A DNA stretch of 64,000 nt from Alitta virens (taxonomy: Eukaryota > Annelida > Polychaeta > Phyllodocida > Nereididae), in the NCBI GenBank assembly GCA_932294295.1, contig OW028574.1, forward strand, positions 29,520,145 through 29,584,144, written 5' to 3'. The stretch's first letter is position 1, and each line of letters begins with the position of its first letter. Shown here piece after piece: positions 11,463 to 62,299 of the stretch. A program made the translations under genes and the position numbers. A model generated the notes under the pieces. That model was given only the letters and a program-made list of their open reading frames with translations. It did no database searches and was not told the DNA's origin.

Positions 11463-11900
11463 GTGTCAAACCTTGGATTTATCTCTAAGATCTTGGAAAA
11501 GATAGTAGCTAACCAACTAACTGCTTATTTAAATGACAACAACCTGACTGAACCATGCCAGTCAGCATACCGGAAAGGGCACAGTACTGAAACTGCACTT
11601 CTGCGTGTCCAAAATGATGTCATCCATGCCCTAGGTGAACAGCAAGCCGTACTACTTGTGTTATTAGATCTATCTGCGGCATTTGACACTGTCAACCACA
11701 CACTGCTAATCACCACCCTTCAACAAATCGGAGTGTGTGGAACTGCCTTGTCGTGGTTCTCATCATATTTGCATCAGCGTCAACAAGTTGTGAAAGTGTC
11801 CACTGAAACATCTAGCCCCCAACATCTGGCTTGCGGAGTGCCCCAGGGCTCGGTCTTGGGGCCCCTGCTGTTTACAATCTACACAGGTTATACACGTGAT
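11463..11900 (+). pseudogene. CR1/Jockey-like LINE reverse transcriptase, 3'-truncated
   Basis: A continuous frame of about 145 codons carries RT motifs in order: LGFISKILEKIVANQL, EPCQSAYRKGHSTETALL, LVLLDLSAAFDTVNHTLL (motif A, with its catalytic Asp) and GVPQGSVLGPLLFTIY (motif B). It breaks off immediately before the YADD box, where unrelated DNA begins, so it cannot be active. The frame itself is intact, which makes it younger than the relic at 8870-10060. The upstream half (endonuclease) is absent. Confidence 0.85.
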
Positions 11901-12300
11901 TGCGCCCTCTAGCTAGAGGCTTTTAACATGACTTTGACCACTGTAAATAGAGGGTCAAGAGACGTCTCTCAACCTCTTGAGAGATGCCAAGATATGGTCA
12001 AAACACTGTTACACGAGATAGACGCCTGTAAGCTCCTATATCGGATAGCCACGCATTTTGCTGGTCCATTTGAGCTTAATTATAATGTATGATGATTCTT
12101 AAACGTAATACTGGTCAACAAATTACTGATACAGAACCATAAAAATAGGCCTACAAATACATGTAGGTTAATTAATAATATTAATTAGGCCTATATTCTT
12201 ATCTGTAGGCATGTTCCTAGTACTTTGTGCAGAAATCAGATAATCTGATCCCTTTTATCTAAAAAGAAAAAAGAAAAAAAGAAGGGGTGCGAGGGAGGAC
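11901..12300. other. No gene seen
   Basis: Spacer between the truncated RT and the tRNA-like sequence. It contains several 'taggcctaNa' words typical of this DNA and no coding frame. Confidence 0.45.
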
Positions 12301-12303
12301 TGT

Positions 12304-12400
12304 TCTAGATGAAAAAGAGTGGGACTCGAACCTACGACTCATGAATGCCTTCCTTGTGCTAATTTCTACCATCTTCCCAGCTGAGCTACCACGTCATGTA
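12304..12400 (-). repeat. tRNA-derived SINE head or tRNA pseudogene
   Basis: The minus strand contains perfect-looking RNA polymerase III boxes: TAGCTCAGCTGG (A box, about 12372-12383) and GGTTCGAGTCC (B box, about 12317-12327). They lie 44 bases apart. The T-stem has one mismatch and the sequence expected for the 3' acceptor strand does not pair with the 5' strand, so a functional tRNA is unlikely. The downstream T-rich stretch fits a SINE body or tail. Confidence 0.55.
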
Positions 12401-12470
12401 TGTCTAAGGGAGAAATCATTGCTATCTATCTGTAGTTCTATATATGAATAGGCCTAAATACTATTACTAT

Positions 12471-12472
<2 letters not shown>

Positions 12473-12542
<70 letters not shown>
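12473..12542. repeat. (TA)n microsatellite
   Basis: About 35 uninterrupted TA units. Confidence 0.95.
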
Positions 12543-12545
<3 letters not shown>

Positions 12546-12669
12546 TATGGTTATATTTCATATATGCAAAACATTCTCAATCAAAAAATGATACTCTGTA
12601 CAATACATGCTAGGCCTAGGCCTATATATCATTAAGGATATTTCTGATCATGCTGGTCGTAGTCCTGGT

Positions 12670-12747
12670 AAAATTATATGGCTATATAATACAAAATTAT
12701 ATGGCTATATAATACAAGTAAAATTATATGGCTATATTAATACAAGT
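12670..12747. repeat. Short tandem repeat, unit about 25 bp, three copies
   Basis: Three near-identical copies of 'aaattatatggctatatNa' followed by 'atacaa'. Confidence 0.8.
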
Positions 12748-12749
12748 TA

Positions 12750-15070
12750 GGTTTAAGCAACAGCCAGTTTGATATGATGCCTAAACTTCAGTTAGGCCGG
12801 AGTACACCAAATAGTTATGACTCCAGGTGTCGCCACTTGTACAATGAATTGCAAACTGTCTTGAAGCTTGTCCAGCAACTTCCAGAGCCTTGTGAACATA
12901 ACACCAGATGACAGCACAAAACATATAACCATGATGGAATACCTCATAGGGAGCGCTGTAGTAGCAATTAACGGAAGATATATATATTACACTACCCAAT
13001 GAAAGTGAGGATCTGAACAGGGTAGCTCAGCCCCCCCCCCCCCACAAATTAACTCAACAGCAGTGGGGCTCAACCCCTCCCCCCCCCCCCCCAACCTGTA
13101 AAATTTCCTTTGCCCCTCTGTAAATCTAACTTACAAATGTAATGACCTTATCACGAAAAAGTCTTTATTGTTAATTGGCACTTTCCTCCTTCTCAAGCAG
13201 CAATACCCTGCCTACGCCACTGACTGAACTCCCCGTCCCCACCACCCCACAGTACATGAGCATTGCAGTACTGTTAGTCCTACTTCTGTACTGCCCAATG
13301 GTGTAATTAATGTTATTACTATGATATATCTTGAGTATATTGCTTATGCCACACTTTCATATTTTGAAGCTTCTCAGATCGGCCCTGCGCCGACTGACTA
13401 ATAAAAAAATAACATGTCCCATGTTATTTAATATGAAATTGTCATTATTGAAATGAGTGACCCTTTAAAAAGTTATAGCTAACGACCTCACATACACAAT
13501 GAACTCGAGACCAATTCAATGTCAACAGTTTATTTCAAAATTACCAATATTTATTGATACATGAACTTAGATGTATTTTATATAATATTTGTGCATACAC
13601 ATGAAACAAAGTAAAAATATCCGGGAATAAATTCACATAATTTATTTTCAAATATATTTAATAATTTCTTGAACAATAGCAAGCAATAATAGAGAATGTA
13701 TTTCAAAATAGTTTATACATAAAATGTATTTGCATAAAATAAATAAATATCTTTGGAATTTTTATAGATTGCACAGATATACCGTAACATACATTTATCA
13801 GCACAGATGAAACATTCCATAATGGAGACCAGATCTGATAACAGTAGGTCCAGAGTACGTGCCACTCAGGGCAGACACTGATAAAGGTGACCTCAAAGCT
13901 TGCTAGGGCCCTGGTCATTGGCATAACACTGTCTCATATATTGTTTTTTTGCTTTTGTAAACTGCTACCATGTAACTCTGGTATCTGGTCATATACAACA
14001 TGTTAAAATACCTACCATAAATCCTCAACACAACACAATACAATACAATACAATACAATACAATAATAACATATGAGCCACTTGCTTTGGGCCATTTTGT
14101 ATATTTAATTGTATTAAAATAAGTCTATGGTAATTAAACAAGAGAAGTAGGGTGAGCAAACTTCTATATGCGGTACATCTATCAATAATAAAGATATGTA
14201 CAAAACGCTGTAACAACCAACACATGCACAGCAAAAAATTATACCAGCATTGATTACATGTATATGTAAAGGAACAACATTAATTTTGGTTTTTCACTGT
14301 GTGTACGTAGCGCTGCCCACCCCACCAAATAGCAAACATCCATATAATGTACAACGACTTTTCGAACTGATTGGAACATTTGATAAGAATTAAATCACCC
14401 CAACATTTGGGCAATAAATTAGTTTTCACCTCTTTTGACCTAACAAGTTCACTCCAGTATTCTTGTAGACTAATGGTCTGAATAACATAGGCAAGTAACT
14501 GAGGACATATACAGCTGTAACTGTTGTAACCATCATAAATTTACAGAGCAATAAAACACTAAAGAATTCCTGTCAGGTTGTCCTTTCATATGAGTATTTC
14601 ACTGGAACTTACCCATGACAACACCTATTTTGATGGTGAAAGTTTGGTTGGATGCAATCTATTTTTTTCATCAAGCTGGATGTACTTTTACAAATTCACC
14701 TCAGTTTAGGTATGTCAATATTTTTCATTTATACTGAAAGTCAACGTGGGTTCATGGCTGGCAGCGACTGCCTAGATAGCACTAGACATTGTTTTGACAT
14801 CGGCCCTAAGTGGGCGACCTCAGGCCATATATTTTAAATACTTGTTTTGTTTAAAAAAAATTGCTAAGTATATGATATTAGTCGTGTCATTCACGTAAAC
14901 TCATCTTTAAATGGTATCAAATATGATATAAATTGGTGTCGCAAGGAGTCTGGCATGTCAAAGAAAATCGGCCGACAATCACCATTCACTGGCATCCAGG
15001 GGCCTGTTCAGTATTAATTTCTGACTTTTAACTGTTCCTCTAAGGTCAAGCACTCTAAAAGAAGTAGCCA
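12750..15070. other. No gene seen; microsatellite at 14026-14066
   Basis: AT-rich spacer with two poly-C runs (near 13032 and 13079). One lies close to the 'ctacgccactgac' word at about 13203, which recurs elsewhere as 'gtggcgtag'. An (ACAAT)n run occupies about 14026-14066. No frame here has recognisable motifs or convincing splice sites. Confidence 0.5.
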
Positions 15071-15074
15071 TATA

Positions 15075-17384
15075 CAGTTGAATCTCTACCTGAAAGACCA
15101 CACTATCATGGGTCCCAGTCAGTGTCCGCAATATAAACATTCCCCCTATTCAATTGGCCAATGTGTTCAGTGGGAGGGGCATTACAGTTTTACTTTAATT
15201 TGATTGGTTAATAGGTCAATGACTTACAGATTATGTAACAAGTGTTTGCAGTGATAGTTTGATTACCATGTAACCAAAAAGTAGCATAAACAATGTCTGA
15301 AAATTTTGCAGGAACTGCACTTGACTTGACCTTTCACCTGCATCTCTTATATTTATAATGATCACAGAACTGTATCTCACATAACTCCACTTCTAGCAAT
15401 AATAAAATTATGCAGTTTTCTGCAAATCATATATTATGTTTTGTGCATAACTATTATATAATCCTTTTATTCATTCATTACAGCATTACTTTTTGTTTTA
15501 ATCAATTGTAGCCTGGGAAAAAATCAGATTGGGGGGGGGGGGGATTCGGTCAAAGGTCATGCTTCTAATTTTCTGATGTTCACTTTAGTAAACAAGTAAT
15601 ATTTATATTTGGCAAAATTCTAGCTCTGACTAGCACAACCAGATTGAAGTACACACAGAAAATATGTCATATGTAGATCTATCTGATTTTGCTTTCAGCA
15701 GAAATTAAAAATGCATCTTCCAGCAGAAATTAAAACATCATAATTTTATCATTAGAAGTGAAGTTTTGCCAACAATCCAAGAAAATAAATTCAATATCAA
15801 TTAAATTGAATGTAAATACTTGAATAGCTCAACTGATAGCTATTGATCACCAGCAAAATGTCTGACATAATTTGCGATCTTGACCTTAAATGTATGAAGT
15901 TAAACAACTCACGTGATTAATGAATTAACAGCGATGTCAATCATTAATCACAGCATGTCAATCAAACTTAAGCTCCACCCCCTGCAGTGACATAATGACA
16001 CTGAAATGATTACGCAATGTGAGCGGGCCCAGTCAAAACACCAACTAATTGTAACAACTGTTAACTGAATAGCCAGTCAAGTGTAATTGTTTACCAAGCG
16101 TCTAATAATGCAAACCATGCCTAGACCTATATAGATGATCGACAGCTCAGTTTTGTTGGGTTCAATGAACTTTTGACAGTTGTTGATTATATATTATTTA
16201 GCAAAAAGTGAGCAGTTTCTGAATATAGGCCAAGATTTAAGCCAAGGCAAAAAGTGTTTCTCACTCACTGAAGTGCAAAATAAATGTCATGCTAGTAGCT
16301 AAACAGTAAAATAATGATGAATTCCAGGTGTGTAGAAGGAAGACATTAAATTTTTGTTAAATAGTGTTAATTATACAAGTTTGCCTCAGCAGATTTTTGA
16401 TGTCAAATATATTAACCTGAGTGCCACTAATATTATAAAACATGAAAGGATTTTGTGTCTGACACTGTCTGAGTATTGAGGGCCATGCAGCAGTCTTCAT
16501 ATTTTTTCGTTGGATTATTTATAAAAACTTAACTTATCATTTTCAATGATGTGAAATGGTGAACCATCAAATTTGATCATTTCGTGCAATAGTCTTTCTA
16601 TGCACTCAGCTGGCTGTAGTGACAAGGGCACAGCTCAAATGTCCCCCCCCCCCTCCGAAAAAAACAAAAAAACAATTACTTTCACAATGTAGACAATATA
16701 TACACAACATGGTGGTGCATGCCAAATGTTGGTAACATACATCATGTCATTCATAAGCATGAAAATATTTTGATATTAATTATAATCAGGAGTCTATGTA
16801 AACCATCTGAAAACAGTGACAATTAAGCATTTAACTTCCAAACACCCTTAACATAAGTGTATAGTACTTAGCTGAAAGAAACATTGCTAACCCCCCCCCC
16901 CCCCTGTAGCTATTGTTTAGGTATATTGCACTGCACATAATATATAGGTCACTCCCTCTTTTTTCTGATCATAGGCCTAATATATTATAATCATTCAAAA
17001 CATGTATATTTTGTAGGTAATTATCATCCACGCTGTTTTGGTATAATTTTTTTTGTGGTTGCTATCATTTTTAAATGAAATTCTGCTAGATATTTTCCAC
17101 TATATGACTGAACTGATATCCTTCTGTAACTGTGTGATTATTATTAATAAATATGAGAATGGCATGTGATCTTGAAAGTCAAATGCAAACGCCTGCAAAA
17201 ATTTCCAGACATAGTTTATCTAAACCATAATTTCTTTGCTATTTTGTGCAGTAACACTCAATACTGTTACTATGTAGATTCAGTAAAATAAAATAGTTTT
17301 ACAAACCTGTCAATCACAACATAATATGCCTATTATAAACCAGGTGTTAGATGTAGTGTGGTCTTTAAGCTAGAGATCCAACTG
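15075..17384. mobile_element. TA-flanked element with diverged 30-bp terminal inverted repeats
   Basis: The left end (15075-15105) begins CAGTTGAATCTCTACCTG and the right end (about 17350-17384, reverse complement) begins CAGTTGGATCTCTAGCTT. Both continue into AAGACCACACTA. The 2310-bp segment is bounded by TA on each side, as in Tc1/mariner-type insertions. The ends differ at about five of 31 positions and no transposase frame is visible inside, so this is an old non-autonomous or decayed copy. A poly-G run (15532-15543) and poly-C runs (16641, 16891) lie inside. Confidence 0.6.
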
Positions 17385-17983
17385 TATTATTATGCTGGCA
17401 CAATGCCATATACATGATATATTACCCCCCTTAAGCACTCATCTGCAACTTTGCAAAATCGGCTGGAAAAATCGCGTAGTGTGAGACTGTGCGACAAATC
17501 GGCGCAAAAATCGCCAGCCCCGTGTTGGCCGACAAAATTGCATAATGTGAGCCCAGCTTATATAATATATATTATATAAAGCTATTTGTGAAATAAATAA
17601 TCTACAAAACAATGATTCTAACATTCAGTATATAAGTACTGTTCCAAATATGAACCGTAATAGATATCACTCATAAGGAAAAGAAGAGGCACTGATTGCC
17701 TAATCATTATAAATTTCCTAAATATTTTATGCATGGCAATAATACAAGACATATGAATTTCGGACATCACAGCATAATACTGCGGTACTGGGGTCACTGG
17801 TTACAGATGTTGCTATGGCAAAAATGACGTTTTGTGCAATTAAGTTCTAACAGCAAGCAGCTAAATGATGCTGCTCCATGAATATTCAACATTCAGAAAC
17901 ACGCCTAGAATTGATAATTTAATTAAAAACTCGAATTTGAGGTATTTCTTGTTTGTTTTCACTTGAACATATTAAAATATATA

Positions 17984-19022
17984 CAGTCCTAGGAAATCCT
18001 GCACACTGAGCATTTTACCCCTCTGCCACCACAAGCCCCACCGTTAAATTTAATGGTTTTACCAGATGATGCCACATGTGTGACACAACATATAGGCACT
18101 GTTAATGGAATTATCAGAAAGAAAGTCTAAGAAATATTTATCAAATCTGGAGGATACAAGCCATATTTGCTTTAAAATATTTATTCATGTCATTTCATCA
18201 AATTAAAAAAAATCACCACATACAAAAAAAATTAAATTATTTTTTCATGACATAAACATAAGCATTTATCCACGAACCTAAATGAATTTAAGCAATATTG
18301 GCACTATTACAGTTTTAAGTATATAAAAATAAGTACTTTATCATGTAATGTTTAAGACAGAAAAGGTGCATTCATTGGCACACTATAATATTCATTATTG
18401 GTGTGCAATGTTTTACCCTTCTAATAGCAGAAAAAAATAATAAAAATACAGGCCATTAAAAAAAATATTTAGTAACAGTAAAGGTGTCACAAAACTCGTG
18501 ACAATAAGCTCAGAAAAGCTTGGATAAATAGAGATTTATCCATGATTTTTATATATGAAAATCAATACACATTTTGGGCTTGATGTTCTAAAAAAAAAAA
18601 AAAAGACTTATTTGAGAAGTTATGCAATTATTAGCAATTCTTATAACTGAGTTAATTTGATAATTTCATAGTAAAATACGGTAAGTGACAATACATGCAT
18701 GCGACAAACAACTACTTCTATAATAGGCAAACTAGCTGCTTTTTATTTTGGTCAATGACTCAAATCATGGACGTAAAAGCTTTTACATCCATGCTCAAAT
18801 GGAATTTTATAAGGGTTAGTTGCAAACTTGTAGTACAGTACTAAATGGGGTTCTAAGTACTGACATGTATACTTCCTACTCTTGGGTGAGAGGGTTGTGG
18901 TTTTTCCATATGTGTCAACATGCAATTATAATGACATAAATCCGTGTTAAAAGTGACAAGGGTTACCTATGATGAAACAACCGCTCGCTGAGAGCGGTCC
19001 TCTGCAGGATTTCCTAGGACTG
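17984..19022. mobile_element. TA-flanked MITE-like element with identical 20-bp TIRs
   Basis: CAGTCCTAGGAAATCCTGCA at 17984-18003 is repeated exactly in inverted orientation at 19003-19022. A TA dinucleotide lies outside each end. The 1039-bp interior is AT-rich and has no transposase frame. The ends and TA duplication fit a Tc1/mariner-type non-autonomous element. Perfect TIRs suggest relatively recent mobilisation. It lies just downstream of the 3' end of gene B. Confidence 0.75.
18766..18793. repeat. 28-bp near-perfect palindrome
   Basis: An inverted repeat beginning catggacgtaaaagc, with one mismatched pair. It lies inside the MITE-like element. Similar palindromes starting 'catgga' occur at 42397-42425 and 44071-44098. 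Confidence 0.7.
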
Positions 19023-19206
19023 TATATGAAAAAAAATCCAACCTAGTTTAAATGACCAGTCAATCAGATTCCCAGCCTGACGCTGGCAAGTGTTCTCAAC
19101 AGTAGACTGCTGTTGTATCTTCAAGATAAAATTACCAAGTCATAATTAACAATGATTAACTATATCTAGGGTCAGTTATAACACTGACTAGCTAGCTAAC
19201 ACCCAT

Positions 19207-19230
19207 GAGATAGATAGATAGATAGATATA
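19207..19230. repeat. (GATA)n microsatellite
   Basis: About five GATA units. Confidence 0.85.
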
Positions 19231-19618
19231 TAGTTGTCTATGTAGTTGTTATACAAACACTTCAGTTATACTCTAAAACCAATACTATATATTTATGTAT
19301 ATCACAACATAATAGTCATATTTTAAAATGTAGGCTTTATCATTGGTGACGTTTTTTAATGAGTGAAATACAGAATATATGTAGGCCTTATATAATTAAA
19401 TATACTGTTTACTGTGTATGATAGTCTATGAACACTAAATTGATATTAAAACAATCATTACAAATTTCCTAGCATTCAGAATCGGTTTAAATTTTGACAA
19501 AATGTTTACTGGAAGTGAAGTAATCAGTATTTAATGTTTTATTGCCACAGTGCTTTTTATATGGAACCGAGAGGGGTACGGCGGGCGTATGGGTAGGGAG
19601 CAGGGGCTGGCGGGCAGG

Positions 19619-19624
19619 TTTATT
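19619..19624 (-). terminator. Candidate poly(A) signal of gene B
   Basis: AATAAA on the minus strand, about 150 bases past the gene B stop codon. A second AATAAA lies at 19538-19543. The assignment rests on position only. Confidence 0.35.
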
Positions 19625-19776
19625 GCCGGCCCCTGAAATGTCCGATTGGTGTGGTGAGATTAAACTTACAATACAAATAATAATAAAGAAACATTTTTCT
19701 TGTCAAATCGGATGTTAAGATAACTTTCACTGAGCAATTGTTGACTTTCATTTAACAGCAGAAAAAATAAATACAG

Positions 19777-19997
19777 TTAATCACAGAGTTCACATATAAA
19801 CGTTTGGCCATCTGAAGATGAGCACTCCATATGTGCCCATTTATGGCAAACCTGACACTTAATCCATGTGCCTCCAGTGGTCAGGTATGACATGGCACAA
19901 TAGAGGCACATGGCATCTTCTTCCTTCGCATCCTTTTTTGAAAGGAACTTCCTCTTCCTTGATTGCCTGTTTGCCATTTTCTTGGCATATGCCATTG
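19777..19997 (-). CDS. Gene B last exon: PHD-like C4HC3 finger
   Basis: Acceptor ttcttttcag|CA, phase 1, then 73 codons to TAA. A basic stretch (KKMANRQSRKRKFLSKK) suits a nuclear localisation signal. It precedes a finger with ligands CLYC, KCQVC, H-x2-C in KWAHMEC, and ICELC at the very end. Compact PHD-like fingers of this form often sit at the C-terminus of transposase-derived proteins (family knowledge). A chromatin-reader role is only inferred. Confidence 0.75.
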
Positions 19998-22900
19998 CTG
20001 AAAAGAACATTATACCTGCATATATATGTACTTGCATTTGTTGCAGGTAGGTTCTAGTTCATCCAAGATTGAACAAAGACCTGTCACAGAGAAAATCTTT
20101 CAGAGTGGTTTTGAATGAGATTCTCAGAATTTCCTTTATTTTGCTCCAAAAGATTAACCTCCATTTAAACCATAAAAAATTAGGTCAGAATTCTTAGGTT
20201 GTATTTTTTTTTCTACAGGAGCATCTCAAGGCAGTTGCCTATCGGAGCCATTATTCTCATAAATTTGCTCTGCCGCAACAGCAAGATCTATGAGGGTTCA
20301 TTAAATAAATAAAACTCCCAGAAGTTGTATAAAATGACGATTTACCGTTTTGTACAAGAATTTTTTTTTTTTTTATAAACTTTTAGGTTACGGCATCATT
20401 TGTACTATGTTGACATGGCTTTTTGTAATCGGCGCCCAGCGCCCGCTCCCAGCGCCCAGTGCTTTGATTACCCCAGCACATAGAGTACTCTTGTCTCCAT
20501 GCCCTAGAATAAAGTGTGACTGACCACTTCATTTGAACAACACTAAATCCTTTTCAACTCACTATATGCTATATTACATGACATTATATTTTGTATTTAT
20601 ATATGTGCACATGCTGTCTGTATAATTATAAAGCAGTGGCGTAGCCAGGATGTTGTTTGCCCTAGGAGAGAGGGGGCAACTGGTGGGGGGCGGGGGCTTT
20701 GGTTTGGCCTAGGAGTTATTAGTACTAATTACATAACTCGAATTAGATTCGTGCTGCCAGCTAGTCAAGACTAATAATTAATAGGCTTGTTTTGATGTTG
20801 ACTAAAATTTCTGTGTGGGGAAACCCTTGAAAACTATCTGAATAATATCTAAGAAGGATAAGATGGTAAGAATTTTGGGGTAACATCAGCAAAATATGGG
20901 CTATTACGGACTTTTAAGGAGTGAATTGCCCGAACAAACTATATTTTTCTGTAATTTTGATAAGATTTAACAAAATTTGCTTAAAACCCGTGCCCCCCTC
21001 ATCTATGACACTGCCCATGTGTAAAAGCAACTGTACATATGCTGTAGTTGAAAAGCAAATTAATGCTTAAAAAGCAGCATAATTTCCACAAAACGTTAAA
21101 GGGTCATTTTGGAGTGGGCATTAGGTGTGGGATTTGGGTGCTGGGCGCGGGCGCTGGGTGCCGATTACAAAAAGCCGCTGACATCCTAATATCTTTTATA
21201 CTATCACTTTCATCTGCCCTGTTTCTTAATAGCCAAACACTTTAATTTAGGAAATCAGGTGTCAAATGCGTATGAATTTTTTGATTTCAGGGAAATACTG
21301 TGAATGTGAATTTCACAATTTTTTTATTTCTGCAACATTTAAAAAAAAACAAGTAAAAAGAAGACTTATCGTATGGTTCTTTTGCAATAAAATAATTTAT
21401 TTTTTCCATATTCTGTTTCAAATAGTAATATCATTTGTATTTGATAGTATTATCATATAGTGATGATTTTTTCTGGCAAAAGAAAAGAGATGAAAATATG
21501 GTGCGCCAAGTGCTGCTTACTGTTGGTCAAGTAAAATAAATGACATTTTTCCCAGATTGCATTCCAAATCGGCCCAGCATCGTTTCCATGTAGCCCACTG
21601 TTGTAACAACATTAACACGCCAACATCTCGCCAAGGTTAAAACGATTTGGAATGCTATCTGGGTTGTGACGCAAAATATATAATGGCTTGGCATTAAAAA
21701 TCTACTGATAATACTCCAACTGAAGGTGCACTATATTCCTGCTATCAAGTTTTACTTCTTCATATTGGTAATTGTGTTATGTTAAAAAGTAATCTGAGAT
21801 GGTCATCCAAACCATTGCCCTAATTTTGCATGGTTTTCTCTGAGACAGGTCATTAAATATTATCTGGAGATCAGTGCCTAATTAAACAATGGTCACAATG
21901 ATCAGTTGCAGATAACGTGTATCCTAAGTGCATTAGAAAATCTTCAGAAATACAAAATATTTTGCTGCCATGGCAAACCATTGCATCTTATTTAGGTCAT
22001 TTTGGAGACCTAGTCAGGGAATTAGATAAAAAAGAATTTATTTTGGTTTTACAAAGTGCATAAAAATCATATGACACAGAGGCATTATTATCATGTAAAT
22101 ATATATCGTGAGTTTACCTTCAGATACACTGGGAACATTTTCAAGCTCTACTTCTGCAGACCTGGCAGTTTCTGCAATGAATTTCAAACATTACTAGTTA
22201 TTATGAAAGTCCTATGGGTGATATTACACAAGAAAATAACAGTTTCTGATTCTAAATTAAATAAAATGTAAATATTAGTTGCTATGAAATTCTAAGTCTT
22301 GTCTATGATACAGATTAATCATTGCCCTTAGAAACAACAAAAATGTTTGGCCTGTGTTACCTGACCTTTGCAGATTAACTGTGTTGCTGGCAAAGGGATT
22401 AATTACTTTAAATACTATGACAAAAACCATTATATTGTATAAAATATAATTACCTTCATTTGTCACCACAAGGTCATTGGTAGCCGCTGAAATTGATTAA
22501 AATGGAAAAATTACTTATGTAACATAAGTCTTGTCTATGATATACAGCATTAGATTAATCATTGCACTTATAAAAGTTTATATTGTATAAATATAATTAC
22601 CTTCATTTGTCACCACAAGGTCATTGGTAGCCGCTGAAATTGATTAAAATGGAAAAATTACTTATGTAACATAAGTCTTGTCTATGATATACAGCATTAG
22701 ATTAATCATTGCACTTATAAAAGTTTATATTGTATAAATATAATTACCTTCATTTGTCACCACAAGGTCATTGGTAGCCGCTGAAATTGATTAAAATGGA
22801 AAAATTACTTATGTAACATAAGTCTTGTCTATGATATACAGCATTAGATTAATCATTGCACTTATAAAAGTTTATATTGTATAAATATAATTACCTTCAT

Positions 22901-25900
22901 TTGGCACCACAAGGTCATTGGTAGCCGCTGAAATTGATTAAAATGGAAAAATTACTTATGTAACATAAGTCTTGTCTATGATATACAGCATTAGATTAAT
23001 CATTGCACTTATAAAAGTTTATATTGTATAAATATAATTACCTTCATTTGTCACCACAAGGTCATTGGTAGCCGCTGAAATTGATTAAAATGGAAAAATT
23101 ACTTATGTAATATAAGTCTTGTCTATGATGTACAGCTGTAGATTAATCATTGCACTTATAAAAGTTTATATTGTATAAATGTAATTACCTTCATTTGTCA
23201 CCACAAGGTCATTGGTAGCCGCTGAAATTGATTAAAATGGAAAAATTACTTATGTAACATAAGTCTTGTCTATGATATACAGCATTAGATTAATCATTGC
23301 ACTTATAAAAGATAAAGGTTGTCTTAACCTTGGCAGATTAACTGTGTTCCTGGCAAAGGGATTAATTACTTTATATATTAGTATTTATTACTATAAATAA
23401 TAGGACCAAAACAATTATATTTTGTAGTTACAGCAAGGTTATTAGTAGTTGCTGAAATTAATTATAATGGAAATATTACAGCCAGGAAGAGGTGGCCACA
23501 GCTGTATATTGTCGACCATATTTTATATAACTAACTGTATTAACTGAGAGAAGTCCAAGAATTTACAATCTTTTAGCACTTTTTTTTATTAAGATCTTCA
23601 CATTTGTTTAGTGTCCTTCATTGCACTTAAATATGAGAGGCCCTCCTCGAATATAGTCCCACTTCATATAAAAGCCCTGCATAAATGCTGTCTAAAATAA
23701 AACTTTTCCCCCAAATATAACCTGGCAAGGTAGGACTGGCTTATATGGCCATAGGTGATGATGAAACATAAGTCGTCAGATGTGTTAATATGATGTGATA
23801 TATACTGATTGAGATCTTGTACAAGAAATATATATCTTACCAATGAAGTTAATTGGAGCTGCCAGAATAATTTTCAACTGATGAGTGCCCATCCTGTTGA
23901 GCTCCCTAATGGTCATATTTTGAGGCATTCCAGCAATAGCAAAGTTACATTTCCCTAATAGAAAATCCTTATATGGAAATTTGGCTTGCTTTCCCACGAA
24001 TTTACCTGAAAAAGAAACAATTCTTCATATATCAATTTAAGTATTTAGGTATTGGTAAACCAAAGTGTCTTTTCATTTGCAGACATTCTTTCAAGAGCTC
24101 TCAAGTATTATTATATCAAAACATATCAAGGCTTTCAAGTCTTGCATATCCATGATAACTGACAGAGAAAAAAAGGATTTACAATGCATTTATTATATCG
24201 GCAAATATGTTTGCATTTCAAAAGGCTACTTACTGTACTTCTCATTTAGAAGTTGTCTAACTTGTGCCTCCAATTTGCGCTTCTTTGCTGCCCGATTTTC
24301 ATGATCGCCATCTTGGGGGACAGCACTACCTTCTCCTGCTGTAAAAAAAGGTGCATCATCATATCATTTGTTGTTTTTTGCAGCAATTTTCAAGAACTGG
24401 GTTCAAATCTATATCCAGTATTGATCTCAGATATATTTGTTAATTTCGAGGATGCTCAATCCCATCCTAAAACCTGAAAGATGTCTAAAGTTTCCAAATA
24501 ACATGAAAATGCTTACCAAATTTTATTGCAAACTTGTCCCAAAAATTAGGCACGGTGTTGTCGATAAACTTGACAGCTTCGTTAGAACCACCTTTGTGGC
24601 ATTCACCATTTTTTACTATCACAAACATGATATGACCTCCCATATCTTCTACTCTCCGTGACTGAAACCACAAAGATTTCCTAAACATCTCAATTTCATC
24701 TACAATTGTTATTTATACCATGAAATTTAGCTTTTAAAAATTCTAACATATTGTTTTATTACTATGCTGGAAAGTCTTCAGTTTTGAACCATACAGTATT
24801 TCAATATCATGGAGATTACTTCCAGTATTGACAATTATACAAAATCATTACAAATATGTACTGTGATGGCCCCAGGTCACTGACCTTACTAGGTCAGTGA
24901 CCGACTTTGACGCGCACTGGGTGACCCGGACCACGTGACCACGGGGTCTTGGCGGGAATACACCCAGACCGCGTCAGTAGCTGAAGAAGCAGAGGATAGG
25001 CAGGCTGTGCGGCGGGGCAGGGCAAAATAAACTTTAAAACTGGAATACCAACGCTTTGTCTTTCTTGGGGAACCTTACAAATTGGCGCCCGATGTGGGAC
25101 TTGAAGAATCGGATGTAGGGTTCCCCAATTGGATAGAAGACATGGACGACGCATGGACAAGGACATAAAAAACGTTTTGAACCTTTTGAAAAAAAAACAT
25201 GACTTCGCCACGGCCACGCTGGATAAAGGTGCCAGCGACCGCGTGGTTTAGTCAGTTGCAGCGGAGCACAGGAACCGTCAGCATCTACATTGAGCGTCAG
25301 CAGCAGCGACGTTGCGACTTCAAACTTCAAGCTACACATATCTACAGTTAAGTAGAATTCACGCTACAATACTCTACCTTGTTTAGTGTGTTTTAGCCCC
25401 ACGCATAATGCCTGCAAAGTTGCGTAAGAGGCCTGGCTTGGTATCAGCCGACACGAGTGAGCCCGCATCGACTCCGGTGCCGGGCCCCTCGCAAACGGCG
25501 GATGAGTCAGCTCTACGTGCTTCGACTAGGAGTAAAGTAGTGCGAACGCCGGGACGCCCTCGTAGACGAGAGGCCACGGCGGATAGGACTCCAAGTCCTG
25601 GACTCGCATTCACGAGTCAGGAAAATACGCGGACAACCAGCGATCGAGGGCGCCGAAAGGAGCCCTCGCCAGCTGGATATGAGTCGAATGATTCATCCGC
25701 GTCGACGCCTGTTTCCTCGCCTGATGGGCGGCCCTCCGTGGTTGAGCGTGCGGAACCACGTGGCTCAGCCCGGGCTGTCATGGCGGCCACCAGTACTCCG
25801 CAACGGAGTCTGGGTTCTTCGGGGTACAGGCGGAGAAAAGAAGCTATTCCTCCAAAATATGACGGCCAGGGTACGGCCTTCATAGACCACTTAGACGAAT

Positions 25901-28900
25901 TTACTCGAGTCGCCACTTTCAATAAGTGGACGGACGAGGAGAAATGTTTTCACCTTTGGACCAGCGTCACTGGTCAAGCTAAGTTGAAAATGCGGCCCCT
26001 AACTTATCGGGACGATTGGAGAGAGATGGTGAGCCAGTTGACGGCTCTGTTCTGCTCGAATCGTGCCCTCGATGCGTACAGAAATAAATGGTTTAATGCA
26101 AAACGAGGCCCAGAAATGGACCTCGAGACGTATGGGTTGTTTTTATTAGATCTCTCCAGGAAAGCGAACCCCGCTTCCGCCCCCGCCGAGCAGGAACGCT
26201 TTGCAAAAGAGCGTTTCATGGAGACGGCTGGGTCTACTAGTATGAGATTTTGGTTGGCGGCTTTAAAGCCACCCACCCTGCAGGAGGCCATTGATCTAGC
26301 AGTGCAGTACGAGGCAGCGTACGAGGCCACGAAAACGAGTAAGCCTGACGTCGGGCCGGCTGGCGCTATCGCTTTGCCAATACTGCAGCCCGAGGCTTCC
26401 GTGGCTGCTACTGCTTCAGCGTCTATACGTGGCGGCCCGTCCTCTGAAAAAGAGGGAGCCATCACGAGGCAGGATTTGAAGGATTTGGTATATTCGATAT
26501 TAGGCGAGGTTATGTCCAAAGACAAGGGGAAGGTTTATAGTAATACTCGCCGGCAGGACCACGATTATTCACCTGAAACACGGAGGTGCTACCGGTGCAA
26601 GAAGACCGGGCATCTCCGCAGGGATTGTCCTAAGCGAAATGTTGATGATGATCGCTCCAAGAAACGAGCGCCCAGCAGGGACAGGGAACACCGATCGAGT
26701 AAGCACGGTGATAAACGGTCCCAGGGGCGGAGCGATCAGGGCAAAAAGGGGGGAAAGGATAAGAAGGAGAGGAAACACTCGGAAAACGAGTAAGGGTGGA
26801 GGAAGTATCCACGGATCCTTCACCTGCTGAAAAAGCGGCCCCTCAGCCTGCTGAAGAAGCGGCTCCTCAGCCTCCGGAATGTTGGGAAGGGGTGAAAGTG
26901 GGACAGCATTGGCCAAGACAAGTGGCCATGCAGAATTCGAGCGCATCCTGGTATATTACGATTAGTGTAGGGACACGTCACGTGGATCTCCTGATCGATA
27001 CCGGTGCGCAGGTGTCTCTGCTGAGTAAGCAGGAGTACGATGAGATACCTGGCGTGAAACGAGAGACTTTAAGACCTGTGGAAGGCAAGATCTCGGCGGC
27101 AAACGGTGGACCCATCAATATTTATGGTAAGGTGGAGCTCACTCTCTGTCTAGAGAGAGTGCTTTATCCTTGTGAATTTTTGGTAGCGGATATCGGAGGT
27201 CTCCCTGGTCTACTGGGGATGGACTTCTTGAAGAGACACGGTGCATTGCTAATGTGTTCAGTAGGAATGCTGAGACTGGGAGGCGTTGATATCGCGTGTA
27301 GAGAAGGTCGCCCTGGAAAAACAGGCCGAGCAATCTTACACGAAGACGTCCATATACCAGCTCGCCACGTGTCGCAGGTCTCAGTCAATTTGGTGTCCTG
27401 GGGCGTATCTAACGGGGGCGACCTCGTATTCGAGTCGTTGCCCACGGTTTGCCAGGATTTACACATAATGATACCTAGAGGATTATTGGCATCTCAATGC
27501 TCTGGGGCTCACGTGTGGATAGCCAATCCCACGACTGAGAGTGTTCATATTGCAAAGGGTCAAGTGGTAGGTCAATTGAGCGAAGTCGAAAAGGTGGATT
27601 CACCGAAAACGGTGAATGCTGCTGAGGTCAATTTTGAACTCAAGCAGAAGAACACTGAAACACGACTGCCCGTTCATTTGCAGCCTCTTTTGGACGAAAC
27701 TGACGATCTGACCGCAGATCAAAGGTCAGAGCTCCGAAAGGTCTTGATGGAGTATGAACATTGTTTTGAGGGAGGTAAATACGGGCTGGGACGTACGAGT
27801 CAAGCCACGCACAAGATCGATATGGGTGACAATCGGCCTTTCAAGGTGCCGACCCGGAGATTAGGGTGGGCTCAAAACAGGGCGCTGTCAGAGGAAGTGG
27901 ATAAGATGCTGAGACTCGGAGTGATCGAGCCCAGCAGCAGCCCCTGGTCTAGTCCCCCTGTGTTGGTTAGAAAGAAAGATGGAACTTTCAGGTTTTGTGT
28001 GGATTATAGGAAATTGAATTCGTGCACTAAAAAGGATGCTTATCCTTTGCCACGCATTGATGACTGTCTAGACACTTTATCAGGGGCAAAATGGTTTTGT
28101 ACCCTGGACCTGTCATCTGGCTATTGGCAAATAGCTATGGATGACAGAGACAAAGAGAAAACCGCATTCACTGCTCCCAGAGGACATTTCCACTTTACAG
28201 TGATGCCCTTTGGTGTTACAAATGGACCAGCTACACTGGAACGTTTGATGGAGCTAGTGCTAGGAGGATTGGACCTGTCCACTTGTCTATGTTACATGGA
28301 TGATATAGTGGTACAGGGGCCCACATTCCAGAAGTGTCTAGGTAACCTGATAGTTGTACTGAAACGCATTAGCCAGGCTGGGTTAAGATTAAAAGCTAGC
28401 AAATGCGAGTTATTTAAAAGTGAGGTCTCCTTTCTAGGGCATGTGATTTGTAGAGAGGGTGTGAAACCAGATCCTAAAAAGATAAAGGCGGTGCGAGAGT
28501 GGCCAGAGCCAACTACAGTGCAGGAGGTGCGCTGTTTTGTAGGCTTCGCATCGTACTATAGAAAGTACGTGCGTGACTTTGCTGGACTAGCAGCACCACT
28601 ACATGCTTTAACAGCGCACCAGGCCGTCTTTAAGTGGGATGAGACATGCAGCAACGCTTTTAAAAGGTTAATCAGGGCCCTCACGACTGCACCAATATTG
28701 GTGCTCCCACGTGAAGGGTGCCTTGTCATCCTAGACACGGATGCCTCTGATCTTGCGATAGGAGGTGTATTGTCGCAAATAATTGAGGGGGAGGAGCGCG
28801 TGGTTGCCTACGCCTCGCAGTGTTTGTCTTCATCGCAAAAGCATTATTGCACTACGTACAAGGAATTGTTAGCTGTGGTCAGAATGGCGAAAATATTTCG

Positions 28901-31900
28901 GCCCTACTTGTATGGACAGGATTTAGTGCGTTTGCGCACTGATCATCGTGCTTTGGTGTGGTTGCAGAACTTTAAAGATGCGGAAGGAATGTTGGCGAGA
29001 TGGATAGCTTCTCTGACTGAATACAATTTTGTAATCGAATACAGAGAAGGCAAGAAACACGCTAACGCAGATGGCTGCTCACGTATCCCCGTGAGGGCCT
29101 GTAAGCGCCAGGAATGTCCTGACCAAGGTCATGGTCAGAATGTTGACCTTGTGGCTTCCATCACGCAGTGGAACCAAGTACGAGGCTTCCGCACGATTAC
29201 GTGTGGACAGCCTCGAGAGGCGACTGGAATCAGCCCAGGAGAGGCTGAAGGACCCCAGGTGCGAGTGTATATGGCGGAGACAGCTGGAGAGACAGCTGGA
29301 GAGACAGCTGGAGACGGCAGTGAGAGATCTCTGGATCCAAATTGGATAGAGTCTTTCACCTTGGAGGAAATACGGTGTGCTCAGGGCCAGGATATGGCCC
29401 TAGCTACCGCCAAGAAGTGGTTAGATGCTGGACAGCGACCGCCTTATCACGCTATTGTCACGCACTCGGCCCAGGTGCGAAATATATGGGCCCAGTTTTA
29501 TTGCTTGAAATTGCAGCGAGGCATCGTGTATCGAAGCCATAAGCTGCCTACTGGTGAATTGGTGACGCAAATGGTAGCCCCAGCCAGCATCAGACGCAGC
29601 ATCTTCAGCCAGCTTCATACGTCTCGCCTTGGTGGCCATATGGGGATCAACAGCCTCATATCCAAGTTGAGACGGAGGTTCTATTGGCCTGGCTACAAGG
29701 AGGATGTGATACGTTGGATAGGTTGGTGCGATGTGTGTCAGAAGCGGAAACAGGGCGGCCTGAAAAAGGCTCCCCTGCATCAGGTGCCAGTAGGAATGCC
29801 GATGGAAAGGATGGCCATTGACATAATGGGACCATTGCCTGTCACCAAGTCCAATAACAAGTATATAGTAGTCGTTGCCGACTACTTTACTAAGTGGACA
29901 GAAGCCTTTGCTCTTCCTAATCAAGAGGCTTACACGGTGGCTGATTGCTTGGTGACCAATGTGATTTTGCGATTTGGAGCTCCCTATCACTTACATAGTG
30001 ACCAAGGGACTAATTTCGAATCGAAATTATTCCAAGAAATGTGCAAAATATTGGGGATTAATAAGACCAGGTCCACGGCTTATCATCCCCAGAGCGATGG
30101 GTTGGTGGAACGCTTCAATAGGTCATTGGGTGATATGCTATCGAAGTTGGTGAACGAAAGGAGAGATGACTGGGATGACATGCTTCCTTACGTGATGTGT
30201 GCCTATCGGGCTACGCCCCATAGATCCACGGATATCACGCCAAATCGAATGATGTTGGGCAGAGAAGCAATGCTCCCTGTAGATCTGATGTATGGCCACG
30301 CACTCCAACATAAGCACCACTGTCCAGTGGAATATGTAGAGTGGATACGTGAAGCCATGGAAGAATCCTTCGAAAAGTGCAGAACCCAGATGAAGAAAGC
30401 GGCCCAGAAGCAGGCGAAACATTACAATAGGTTGGCAATGGAGCAGTCCTTCCATATGGAAGACTGGGTCCTATTGTTTTATCCGCCCCTGGCTAAACAG
30501 AAACTGGCCCTGAAGTTTCTAGGACCTTACAAGGTGACGAGGAAGATGGGAGAAGTCAACTATGAGATAGAGGCCCCAGCCTCTGGGAAGAGACGCATAG
30601 TTCACATTAATCAGCTCAAGAAGTACTTAGCTGAGGTGACTCCAGATGACATGATTCGGATCCCTGACATCCCATCAGACGATCCGTATTTGGACCCATC
30701 GTTGTATGAGGACGGAGCGAGTGCGACCCCCCTAGACGAGGGGCGGGATCCGCCCTTGCCCGGAGAATTGAGTGGCGACGCAGCGCAGCCTTGGTCTGGG
30801 CAGCCAGAGCGGGGCGGAGCTGCGAGGACAGGAGAACACAGGGGGCGCGGCTTGCAAACACGCGATCCCCTGGATACGAGAAGAGTGGCAGATTCGCGTT
30901 CGAATCTGGATACAGCTCCTTTTCTGGACTTGGAGCTGTCCTCAGCTCCTTTTCCGGATTTGGAGCTGACCTCAGCTCCTTCTCGGGAATTGGATCCGGA
31001 AGCGGCTCCATTTCTACCAGGTAGGCTGAGGAAGCCACCTGATAGGTTAGGCCACAATGTAGGCTACCAGTGAATTTAAGATTCTGGTTGCTGCATATCA
31101 GAGGGAAATAGCACTTATTGCTTGACTTCTGGCACTTTGTTTTTGAGAGTCTAGTGATATCACATGTTTATACAATAAATACCAGTTGTAGCTTCATTTA
31201 GACAATATATAGTTTGATTTTACGTAGTCTTCCCCATGCAAATGATTTTTATTTATTTTTATTAAAGATTCTCTCAAACAAGTGGTAAATGTCGACATAC
31301 TAAAGCGGCGCGTCGCTGCAGTCACTTTCTAGTGACTGGACATTTCGTGTACCTGATTCTCTGGACTGAACACGTGGCCGTGTCCTGCAGAGTGGGTTTT
31401 TAGACGTGCCACCCAAATGGTCGCTACAGGTGCAGCCCTTTTTGAATAAAAGAGGGAGGAATACTGCAAAGGTAGAATTTGGGCACTGCTGGTTAAAAGC
31501 AGGGGCAAAACACGAAATTAGGTAATGAGAATGGTTAAAATGCCTCATAACACTGGAAATATCAGCAAAATAACTTAATTAGCAAGAATTAAGGGCTGTA
31601 GTGGTTATGGAAATGTTTAAAGTACCATGATAAACTTTATATATAGCAAGTTGGGTAATCTGGAAAGGTCAGCAAAAGGGATATAGTTTGCTGGATTATG
31701 GTTACAAGGACAAATGGTTATTTTCTCGTGGTATTGTCATTTAGTGATAAGGAATTGGCTATTTGTCATCATGGAACGTGAAACGTTCCTGATGGTTTGT
31801 TTTATTTGGCTGATAGCAATTGCTGGATTATACATTTAGCAACTACAAAATTCTCACTTTCTGTGTCTTGTGAAACTGTGTCACTGATTCTAGTGACCTG

Positions 31901-34900
31901 CATTCACTGATTCCAGTGACCTGCATTCATGGAAAATTTCCACTGGGGGAAAAGGTCACCAAGTTCGAAACACGAACAGGCACCCCTTTGTATTAATTTT
32001 GTCATTTTCGGTGCAATCCTCAATTAAGAAATTTTATGAGGGGGGGGGGGAGAAAGGGTCAACTGGTCAACAAAGTGATTAGGGTCACATGACCTGTGAT
32101 TCTGGTCACCTGACCTGTCACATGACCTGTCACATGACCTGTCACATGACTCAGAAAGTGCGGCAAAAAGCTGGAGAGCGTGGGGCGCCCTGTCTCACAC
32201 CTTCTGAAACCAGCAGAGAAGACACATCAAGACAAACAGAATTTTAGCGTTTCGAGGACTTAACCAGCACAACTTGGGAAATATAAGGATGTCTGCTACG
32301 AATACAAACAGTGAGGAGGCTACTGCTATGCCAGCAGTGCCCCTGGACAGCGTAGTGGAGGACGAGGGACCTCAGCTGACATCGGCCCAGACGGACATGG
32401 TATTAGCTGCCATGGAGGCAGCGGGCCTCGAGATTGGAGCCGAGCTGGAGGTCTCTGCCAGCGACGCTGAGGTGGCTGCCGTTTGCGGCTTGTCACCTAC
32501 AGCGGAGCTCCCAATCTCCCTGGCCCCGGATTATTGGAGCCCGCAGCGATTGGGTCTCCTGCACCTGGACATGTGGGCTTACATGTCCAGGAAGGAGTAC
32601 GAGCTGGAGGATCCAGCAGTGGAACGTTACGGGGCAGCAGAGCTGCCAGAAACGGCCAGGATGCGGAGGTATCTTCGTCTCCTTCCACGGAGAGAGGATA
32701 TGCCCATTCTGAGTGGATGGATTATTGGAGACCTGGGTGTAGCGACCACCCAGGAGGAAGTGCTGGAAAATTTGAAGAGGCGACCTTGGTACGCCAAGGA
32801 GCGAGTGGCCAGGCCCAGCGTAGAGGGCGAGGTCTCTCCCACCAGGGCTACCAAGTCGCCTGCAAGGGAACAACAGGCAGCTCCGCTTACGGAGTCTGCC
32901 ATGGAAGACGTGAGAGCCACTCCAGCCAGGACCGAGGAACGGCCGCAGGGAGGGAGGCTGGAGGAAATGGAGAGCGAGGGGACGACGGACGATGGGGGGA
33001 CGGAGAGTGACGTCTCGGCCCCAGAGACCACGACCCCAGAGACCACGACCCCAGAGACCACGCCGAAAGTCGTCTTGCCGGCCGCGCCACAGGGTGTAGA
33101 GGGCTTGAATTATATTTGCGCCACGTGCGGAAAGCGCGTGAGAGACCGGAAGTCTCTCACTCGCCACGTGAGCGTGGCCCACGCAGAAGCCTACGTGGGC
33201 TTCCAATGCCCTGTGTGCCCCGCAGCGTTGCCCTCGGACCGGAGGACCAACTTCAGGCGTCATCTGGAGCGGTCCCATGGGTACACCCGTACACAGGCGG
33301 AGGAGCTAACAGCAGCCACACAGCCGACAACAATCCAGGGACCTAACTCCGATGGATCCCTGCCGGCGACGCCGGAGACGAGGACCCTGGTCAGCAGGGT
33401 GCCTACGTCACAGGAGACAGCATCTCCAAGCACCAGGGTGGTGCAGCTGCGCCGCGTTGAAGCAGCTTCAAGCGTGACGCCCCGAAGCCGCCAGACAAGG
33501 CCAAAGCGGCCTCACCCAGCAGCAGCAGCCACCAGGACACCAGCAGCAGCAGCCACCAGGACACCAGCAGCAGCAGCCACCAAGACGCCAACAGCAGCAG
33601 CAGCCGAGGACATGGTGACCAGGGCCCAGTACCAGGACATCGTTCTGGAGGTCCATAGGGCCAGGTCCCAGACGGCTGCAGCAGCTCGAGAGAACGAGGA
33701 GCTGAGGGCCAGGCTTCGCGCCGAAACGGAGCAAAGCGAAGCCAAGGCCCGGCAGTCGGACCTCCTGTATCAGGAGGTGAAGCGGCTGACGGCTGACAGG
33801 AACAGGTGGATGGAGGAGGCCAGGGCTGCTGGATCCTCATCTGCAAGGCCTTGAACGCAAGGTCTTGCAGAGGACTGAACACGACGACGACCTGGACCAC
33901 GCCCCCCACTTAACGAAGCCTGGATACGGACTGGACTTGAACGCTGGACATCAACACGAAATGACACCTAGGCACAACGTGAACGCTGGACATCAACACA
34001 TCGTGCAGGGGCGGACCCAACGCCCTGCGGAGAGTCAGGAGACAATGATGGTAACGAGTGGGACAGTGACTTTTATAATGGCCGCAGTTAGAAACTGTGA
34101 ATAATTGGAAAAATTGTGTCACGGCTAATTATAAGAATGTCCTCACTCGGAAATTACGAGCAGCTGATAAAAGACCTTGCAGAATCCAGAAATGGATACT
34201 GGCCTGTGTCCAAGGCAAAGATGGACTCTGATAAAATTGATGGACTCTATGTGTATTGTTATGTGTTGAATGTTGTGTTTGCAGCGGTGCCAGGGAGTCA
34301 ACCACGTGGATGATGGCTGGGGAAAAAGCCAGCCTCCGGGGCGGACGTGACAGCTTCCTAGTGTCACGCCGCAGGGCGATGGTTGCTGATTGATTATATG
34401 TAATAATTGTGATTTTTGTGATTTAATGAATCTCGTTGATTTTGTGTGGTTCTGATCGTCGTCGCACAGCCTACTGAGTGTATTAGTTTGAATATGGGGG
34501 CATATTCCCAGTAAGAAGGGGGTAATGTGATGGCCCCAGGTCACTGACCTTACTAGGTCAGTGACCGACTTTGACGCGCACTGGGTGACCCGGACCACGT
34601 GACCACGGGGTCTTGGCGGGAATACACCCAGACCGCGTCAGTAGCTGAAGAAGCAGAGGATAGGCAGGCTGTGCGGCGGGGCAGGGCAAAATAAACTTTA
34701 AAACTGGAATACCAACGCTTTGTCTTTCTTGGGGAACCTTACAGTACCTACAATACGTAGAGAATTATTTGTTTAATTTGTTTTTAGCAAATTCATAAAA
34801 CAAACATACCAGTTGTGACATCTGTCTGGCAAAAGATGAAATCCGGCTGCTCTGGTCTTCTTCAGAAAGTTCATTATCTGGCCTTTCTCTGATTTTTTTT

Positions 34901-42567: not shown

Positions 42568-42599
42568 TGAAAAATAAAAAAATGTTATTCTATTACACT

Positions 42600-45500: not shown

Positions 45501-46065
45501 AGAAGTAATGTATAGCACATGAGCCCCATTATGCACATGACACCTTCACGATCATTACATTTCGACATAGCTCTAGATATTCCAACCTATGTCCAGGATA
45601 CCCACTGATCTGAATACTGAATTAGTAAATGCATAAAGTGAAAAATAGCACTGCAAGCGGTGATGAAATCTGTCTGTTGTATGCATATTACATGCTTTAC
45701 ATTGTCCAGGGTCATTGTTTTTACAATCTGTTCTTTCAGGGTCTGTGGGGTTATTCTAACAAATAAACATACAAAGTAAATTCATAACATCTAACTTATC
45801 ATAAATTAATTACCCAAAACTACCATAAAAGTTTTGCAACATGTAGGTAACACCCTGTAGAGTATACCAACCAAATTTGAAGCAATTGAAATCACCCACA
45901 CAGAAGTTCTATCATTTTACCCCATCATAGGGTATAATTACCCTGTAGAAGACAACCATGAAAGTTTAAGTTTCTTCACTGAGTCATGACAATACCTCAT
46001 CTGTTAGACCAACAGACGAGCTAAAAATGCCAACAAATTAGCATAGGATCTGCATTGATACTGAC
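42600..46065. other. Spacer between genes A and B; no gene seen
   Basis: AT-rich DNA with a 25-bp exact tandem duplication (44486-44535), a 'catggagt' palindrome (44071-44098), a poly-T/poly-C run (44700-44800) and no supported exon. The promoter of gene B should lie in its upper-left part. Confidence 0.5.
44071..44098. repeat. 28-bp imperfect palindrome
   Basis: Arms catggagt and actccatg surround an AAGCTT centre. Same general design as the palindromes at 18766 and 42397. Confidence 0.6.
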
Positions 46066-46452
46066 TTATGCATAACAGCTAATGTCATCACTATCACTTT
46101 GAAGATCGAGTTCAAAATCCCCGTGGATTTCATCTTCATCATCCATTGTTCTCGCTCCACTTTCATTGTTACTTAAAAGGGTTACACTTAACCCATCATG
46201 GACTGGCGTGTCAACAACAATCTCTCGGGAAAAGAGATCATTTATGGTTGCTGCCACATATCTTTGATATGCCTCAAGGTTCAACAACTTCACGGTGATT
46301 ACTGTTCTGTGACCTTCTTGATGTATTGTAGAAAGTCGATCCTTTAGTGCTTGGGCAATACGATGATGATGGCTGAAGAGGGCTTGGAGTTCCTTATCAG
46401 AGGCATCTATCTCCTCCTCTGACCGGAGCCTCAACATTAAATTGTCGATTCC
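46066..46452 (-). CDS. Gene A last exon: acidic C-terminal tail
   Basis: Acceptor gcttttaaag|GGA, phase 0, 129 codons including TAA. It ends in an Asp/Glu/Ser-rich stretch (MDDEDEIHGDFELDLQSDSD). The conserved catalytic core lies upstream. Confidence 0.8.
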   Translation of the reverse strand, partial: GIDNLMLRLRSEEEIDASDKELQALFSHHHRIAQALKDRLSTIHQEGHRTVITVKLLNLEAYQRYVAATINDLFSREIVVDTPVHDGLSVTLLSNNESGARTMDDEDEIHGDFELDLQSDSDDISCYA

Positions 46453-60184: not shown

Positions 60185-60391
60185 CAGTGCTCCACAAAAG
60201 TACTAGAACAGCCAGTGCACATGTATTTTGCCAGCATTGCTGTCTCCTGATGCATTTCTGTTTCATGAGAAAAGTTGGTGCAAGAGTATATAGAGACCCA
60301 AAATTGTTTCATGTATAAGAAAACCGTTGTCCAAATACCTTTGTGAAATTACATGCTGAATTAGGTGTCCAAATACTTTTATTGAACACTG
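60185..60391. mobile_element. 207-bp TA-flanked MITE, Tc1/mariner-like ends
   Basis: The left end CAGTGCTCCACAAAAGTACT and the right end (reverse complement CAGTGTTCAATAAAAGTATT) form imperfect TIRs of about 30 bp that continue into 'WGRACASC'. TA lies outside both ends. Non-coding. Confidence 0.65.
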
Positions 60392-60619
60392 TATATATGT
60401 AAAAATATTGGAAACTGATGCCAACTTTAATTTTACCAATTTAGTAGATCTTATGGATACATTCCTGGTTGACTGTAATTATTAGGATCCTAATGATTGT
60501 GTTGCCCAAAATGAAACATAATCTTAATATTCATAGTATACCTAATAAGTATGAAGATCTACTTGATTTACTTGAAAAGCTAAATGAAAAAATATTCTAC
60601 CTGATGTCCTTTTGGGATG

Positions 60620-62269: not shown

Positions 62270-62277
<8 letters not shown>

Positions 62278-62299
62278 TTATAATACAAAAATTAAGTCC

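Follow-up and report, generated by a model that had tools for sequence, protein, structure and literature searches.

The window analysed here is a stretch of 64,000 nucleotides of the Alitta virens genome (contig OW028574.1, positions 29,520,145 to 29,584,144). It contains a large DNA transposon of the KDZ (Kyakuja-Dileera-Zisupton) type, and on the minus strand of this element lies an accessory gene with a tandem array of candidate micro-exons, in which the repeated unit is a whole exon together with an intron. When the array was analysed using Tandem Repeats Finder (TRF), a 147-bp repeat (6.0 copies, 98 % match) was obtained at 22430-23311, in agreement with the six micro-exons at a 147-bp period described in an earlier note made from the letters alone. 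Each of the six units contains one symmetric phase-1 exon of 33 nt, bordered by AG and GT, and the introns inside the array are 114 nt long, also as had been described. The features of the array are the following.

22430..23311, minus strand: probable variable number tandem repeat (VNTR) array, six 147-bp units (TRF)
23419..23451, minus strand: degenerate copy 0 of the micro-exon; 12 of 33 positions mismatched, acceptor present, donor lost
23189..23221, minus strand: micro-exon 1 (AATNDLVVTNE); core match, borders, gene model
23042..23074, minus strand: micro-exon 2; core match, borders, gene model
22895..22927, minus strand: micro-exon 3 (T to P); core match, peptide reading
22748..22780, minus strand: micro-exon 4; core match, borders, gene model
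22601..22633, minus strand: micro-exon 5; core match, borders, gene model
22454..22486, minus strand: micro-exon 6; core match, borders, gene model

All six exons are within one mismatch of a single core, preceded by cag at the end of a pyrimidine-rich acceptor and followed by gtaatta. Only one of the three frames of the core is open (AATNDLVVTNE), and it is the frame required by the phases of the exons on both sides (24005-23841 and 22171-22118), so that this claim of the earlier note was borne out. The change of T to P in micro-exon 3 alters one residue and is found in one of the six exons. The degenerate seventh copy (copy 0, read 23451-23419) precedes the array and a relic of an array unit trails it at about 22334-22253. 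The array thus has the appearance of a young core with older copies on both sides. The span given earlier, 22293..23460, has the array inside it and was too wide, since it takes in copy 0 and part of the trailing relic.

For the chance expectation, open symmetric phase-1 candidates were counted at thresholds which the array itself reaches (acceptor tract with at least 8 of 15 pyrimidines, donor with at least 8 of 9 matches, length 20-70 nt). Three such candidates were found in the other ~42 kb of the element (both strands), or 0.0053 per 147-bp unit. With the thresholds relaxed as far as was tried (7 and 7), the count rose to 31, or 0.055 per unit.

The array fits into a 14-exon open model (35493 to 19777, minus strand) with GT-AG at every intron, consistent phases and a stop codon at the end. 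The two flanking exons, which the earlier note had assigned to a minus-strand gene, have good borders and fit this model. The 5' start of the gene upstream of exon X0 was not found. The exons outside the array are listed below.

35356..35493, minus strand: exon X0; GT-AG, open, phase fits
35105..35222, minus strand: exon X0b; gene model
34810..34985, minus strand: exon X1; gene model, identical in the copy on contig C3
24517..24661, minus strand: exon E1; gene model, relative in a second family (family B, see below)
24234..24338, minus strand: exon E2, start of GTF2I-like repeat; PF02946 match, gene model
23841..24005, minus strand: exon E3, rest of GTF2I-like repeat; PF02946 match, gene model
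22118..22171, minus strand: exon E4, symmetric phase 1; gene model, 54 of 54 positions identical in the copies on contigs C3 and C12
19777..19997, minus strand: last exon, PHD-like zinc finger and stop codon; Pfam matches below cut-off, gene model

Exons E2 and E3 encode a GTF2I-like repeat (Pfam PF02946). The E1-E4 peptide scored above the cut-off of 27 bits (E 2.2e-6, 28.3 bits), and the 439-residue model just below it (26.2 bits). The last exon matched zf-HC5HC2H (E 4e-4; 21 bits, curated cut-off 29.1) and PHD (E 7e-4; 20 bits, curated cut-off 24), and it is named PHD-like only because these matches miss the curated cut-offs. The shortest non-array intron of the gene, from the model coordinates, is 119 nt. 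The intron that separates E4 from the last exon contains 42-bp inverted arms, 676 bp apart (20417-21176), which resemble a small inserted element.

The carrier was defined by comparison within one assembly (671 Mb, 23 contigs), where contigs C3 and C12 contain further copies of the region 11884-63903, broken up by insertions and deletions into pieces that are 95-99 % identical. A host gene with a private array was thus ruled out, as the surrounding 52 kb is found elsewhere in the genome. The earlier note had read the locus as an array of micro-exons within a gene; the unit, the phase and the gene stand, while the context of a KDZ DNA transposon had been missed. The carrier features are as follows.

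11884..63903, minus strand: 52.0-kb copy of the KDZ DNA transposon, with CA..TG ends and terminal inverted repeats that are imperfect and ~133 bp long; beyond these limits the C3 and C12 copies cease to be homologous
49260..49616, minus strand: part of KDZ transposase (PF18758); Pfam E 9.4e-12, 45.5 bits, cut-off 26.6
49610..49861: weak KDZ part; E 0.076
51774..52253: weak CxC1 part; E 9e-5, below its cut-off

The transposase sits upstream of the accessory gene on the same strand, and about 3.3 kb of its region (50497-53793) is absent from the C12 copy. The termini are alike in all three aligned copies; for the window element, the left end base was assigned manually on this alignment. Ends of CA..TG are seen in the C3 copy together with a 7-bp target repeat; a target site duplication was visible by eye in this copy only, none being seen in the window and C12 copies.

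The flanks of the window copy (11877-11883 and 63904-63910) do not match, with reverse-transcriptase sequence on the left and unrelated sequence on the right, and given these unmatched flanks the window copy may be a recombinant. A Gypsy-type long terminal repeat retrotransposon (about 24862-34743) lies in the X1-E1 intron of the window copy and is absent from the C3 and C12 copies. It carries gag- and pol-like open reading frames (ORFs) and a 526-residue ORF (32274-33854) which by eye appears to have C2H2 zinc-finger-like motifs.

When the genome was searched with a 474-bp piece of the window array, further array loci of the same family (family A) were found. Nine element copies of the one assembly contain 6 (window), 8, 11, 2, 17, 9, 11, 2 and 8 units. 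Within 4 mismatches of the core, 74 of 74 units have AG and GT and no stop; copy 0, wherever present, and a decayed tenth locus (L048) were left out of this count. Unit spacing is exactly 147 in 64 of 65 cases. The earlier note had proposed that protein length could vary by 11 residues per copy, through splicing or through unequal crossing-over between alleles; variation by whole array units (2 to 17) was indeed found, between element copies and not between alleles.

Two pairs of sibling copies were compared. Loci L043 and L047 share an internal deletion and have identical sampled flanks (400/400 and 377/377 bases), yet they contain 17 and 8 units. In L044 and L045, which have a different deletion in common, the sampled flanks are again identical (800/800 and 370/370), yet the unit numbers are 9 and 11. 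Unit order is also changed in both pairs, which suggests block duplication. As unit number differs next to identical sampled flanks, the array seems to change faster than the flanks; the comparison suggests turnover faster than base substitution in the flanks, unless the flanks are homogenised by exchange between copies.

Three different internal deletions (in L043, L047, L044, L045 and L046) each have one breakpoint in the array region. This suggests that the array is a point of breakage or template switching, with the bias that the deleted loci were found through the array. A listed KDZ match lies near four of these five copies (not L047).

Five loci match the E3 exon of the second family, family B. 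Exons E1, E2 and E3 can be recognised in four of these loci, L012-L015 (E at most 2e-4), where E4 is weak (E 0.7-0.9); two of the four also gave a match to the last exon (E about 0.5). Compared with the window, family B is 45 % identical over E2-E3 and 40-43 % over E3 alone. Between E3 and E4 of L014 there are nine ~160-bp units, each with a 57-nt phase-1 exon (DDGQGTAVGLIEGATLTNE type) and its own acceptor and donor. Unit numbers in L014, L013, L012 and L015 are 9, 9, 3 and 2, and among the 57-nt exons of the four loci AG is present in 23/23, GT in 22/23 and a stop in 0/23. The donors are mostly AAG/GTAAGT. The units are only ~91 % alike and differ in peptide. L013 and L014 (C6:15.65 and 15.70 Mb) lie in inverted orientation about 47 kb apart and are 99.7 % identical over 7.8 kb; despite this identity, their first three array units differ. 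The exons of families A and B are unlike while their place, phase and architecture are alike, and this is the strongest argument for real exons rather than an accident.

A shared origin of the A exons, the B exons and E4 was considered and is not claimed, as only weak signals were obtained. For DNA similarity, P values were 0.03 (A-B), 0.024 (B-E4B), 0.064 (E4A-E4B), 0.066 (A-E4B) and 0.30 (A-E4A). For peptides they were 0.017 (micB-E4B), 0.027 (E4A-E4B), 0.063 (micA-micB) and above 0.2 for the other cross pairs.

A listed KDZ match lies ~19 kb upstream on the same strand at two of the five B loci (C6:15.65-15.70 Mb), and none is listed near the other three. Among 14 other GTF2I matches in the genome, five (L029, L030, L031, L036 and L040; on C7, C12, C6 and C11) are preceded on the same strand by a listed KDZ match, 14-22 kb upstream. 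The pairing of KDZ and GTF2I thus recurs beyond families A and B. None of the matches listed in full-text literature searches combined a KDZ name with GTF2I. No comparable array was found within ~1.5 kb on each side of the 14 loci (L029-L042), nor did 2.5 kb lying upstream of a related last exon (on C13) contain one. At L033 there is a 33-bp repeat; it is read on the opposite strand from the GTF2I match of that locus, and several of its stretches contain stops.

When the eight non-array exons were compared between the window and C3 copies, 2 differences in 1122 positions were found, versus 54 in 5095 in neighbouring non-coding sequence (Fisher one-sided P 0.0012), and both exon changes are silent. 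This contrast and the silent changes speak for purifying selection on the non-array exons.

Several observations weigh against a functional array of exons. Between the window and C12 copies the non-array exons are only weakly conserved (7/1121 versus 56/4748 in non-coding sequence, P 0.066); in the C12 copy, X0 is interrupted by a stop codon and the last exon has a gap of one base. Within the arrays the exon is no more conserved than the intron (pi 0.019 versus 0.016 in A, 0.105 versus 0.078 in B), and exon changes look neutral (A, silent 1 of 25 possible and amino-acid-changing 5 of 70; B, 6 of 43 and 17 of 121); possible stop changes in the array exons are too few for power. Units without intact splice sites also occur: the decayed unit of L048 has 7 mismatches and a shifted donor, copy 0 has lost its donor, and a fifth B locus, outside the 23 exons above, has two units of which one has by eye lost its donor. 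Five of the nine A arrays (L043, L047, L044, L045 and L046) lie in internally deleted copies without E1-E3 in the stretch read. Since arrays vary in such copies, array growth itself needs no working gene, and turnover of the array belongs to the DNA itself and does not prove that the protein is under selection. Finally, no homolog was found at E up to 0.01 among 8000 scored protein candidates.

The neutral change of the array exons, conserved no better than the array introns, and the variation in copies without E1-E3 would suit the main rival explanation, an ordinary intronic minisatellite whose unit has strong cryptic splice sites by chance, with the exons skipped and without a role in protein. 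However, an open symmetric phase-1 pseudo-exon is expected far less than once per unit even at the loosest thresholds, the second family has a different exon array alike in phase and place with donors mostly of one type, and the 114-nt array introns are near the shortest other intron of the gene. We consider this explanation unlikely. It is also very unlikely that the array exons are alternatives used one at a time (mutually exclusive) and not joined together: the common borders and phase of the units, and the different peptides of the B units, would suit such a choice, but the peptides of the A units are nearly identical and a choice among them would give little new. Misassembly of a short array is a highly improbable source of the differences in copy number: although all counts come from a single assembly, the A arrays, at 0.3-2.5 kb, are short and vary not just in number but also in the order of their units and in point variants, and the B units, being only ~91 % alike, are easy to place.

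The best reading is a recurrent whole-exon VNTR in a transposon accessory gene: the unit holds a complete symmetric exon in the phase of the gene, and its number ranges from 2 to 17 among nine element copies. We conclude that the array is likely a VNTR with a whole micro-exon and intron as its unit, in an accessory gene of a large KDZ-transposase DNA transposon. The array exons are likely spliced into mRNA, as judged from their borders and phase, and the accessory protein probably exists in different lengths. With both splice sites in each unit and symmetric phase 1, gain or loss of units at the DNA level (by unequal exchange, slippage or gap repair) would keep the frame, and units could be skipped in splicing without a frame break. 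The GTF2I-like repeat and the C-terminal PHD-like finger would be kept, while the repeated linker between them would change in length by 11 residues per unit; the protein ends would thus be constant and the linker length variable. We infer that the repeats form a flexible or multivalent linker, and how many exons join per transcript is likewise inferred.

By analogy, the GTF2I/PHD-like protein would likely aid the element at the level of chromatin or DNA, and its array would serve as a linker of variable length or as a run of multivalent motifs. A SUMO-interacting role for the repeat peptides is a further, purely speculative idea. RAG2 has a PHD finger. RAG1 and RAG2, a transposase and a separate partner protein, are reported to derive from a single transposon (PMC4411706). 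More speculatively, and with doubt on our side, KDZ elements could have a built-in diversifier of accessory-protein length, in which a splice-ready micro-exon is amplified and homogenised, tuning the binding of a host or chromatin partner, and which arose or was renewed separately in at least two families. If the whole-exon reading is true, nearly identical insertions would encode accessory proteins with different counts of a short motif, and protein length would vary by whole exons, not by repeats inside one exon. The setting offers many sibling copies in one genome, directly comparable, and links KDZ transposases with a GTF2I-like repeat gene.

Among known systems, the element is like KDZ elements in its PF18758 domain, CxC1/CxC2-like stretch and terminal inverted repeats. 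Two fungal Kyakuja families have CA..TG ends and a 7-bp target repeat, and Zisupton one of 8 bp (PMC12730594). The C3 copy is like these Kyakuja families in both ends and target repeat; the element differs from them, as they are described there, in its 52 kb and long imperfect inverted repeats, those families being without any. Nematode Zisupton has multi-exon genes (PMC9297572), as found here. A further difference is the second gene, with its GTF2I-like repeat, micro-exon array and PHD-like finger; in some fungal KDZ elements a TET/JBP gene is present instead (PMC12730594). Mammalian GTF2IRD2 joins a GTF2I-like repeat to a transposase-derived hAT (Charlie8-like) part (PMC10641963). Both have the GTF2I-like repeat, which here lies in a separate gene inside the KDZ element.

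Whole-exon repeats are known from other genes, and arrays of short or duplicated exons likewise. In the LPA kringle IV-2 repeat the unit holds complete exons and repeat number sets protein length. Both systems thus have complete-exon units, but here the exon measures 33 or 57 nt, a transposon acts as the carrier, and the arrays of the two families are built of different exons. Schistosome micro-exons are symmetric, and they are not known as near-identical tandem copies at a fixed period. Schistosome micro-exon genes have many very short exons (PMC10526429). The array here resembles them in its very short exons and is set apart by its near-identical tandem copies. Dscam exons are longer and more diverged. 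Arrays of the Dscam type consist of tandem duplicated exons, chosen one at a time (PMC1397879). Unlike these, the array exons here are very small and almost identical, and joining all of them keeps the frame.

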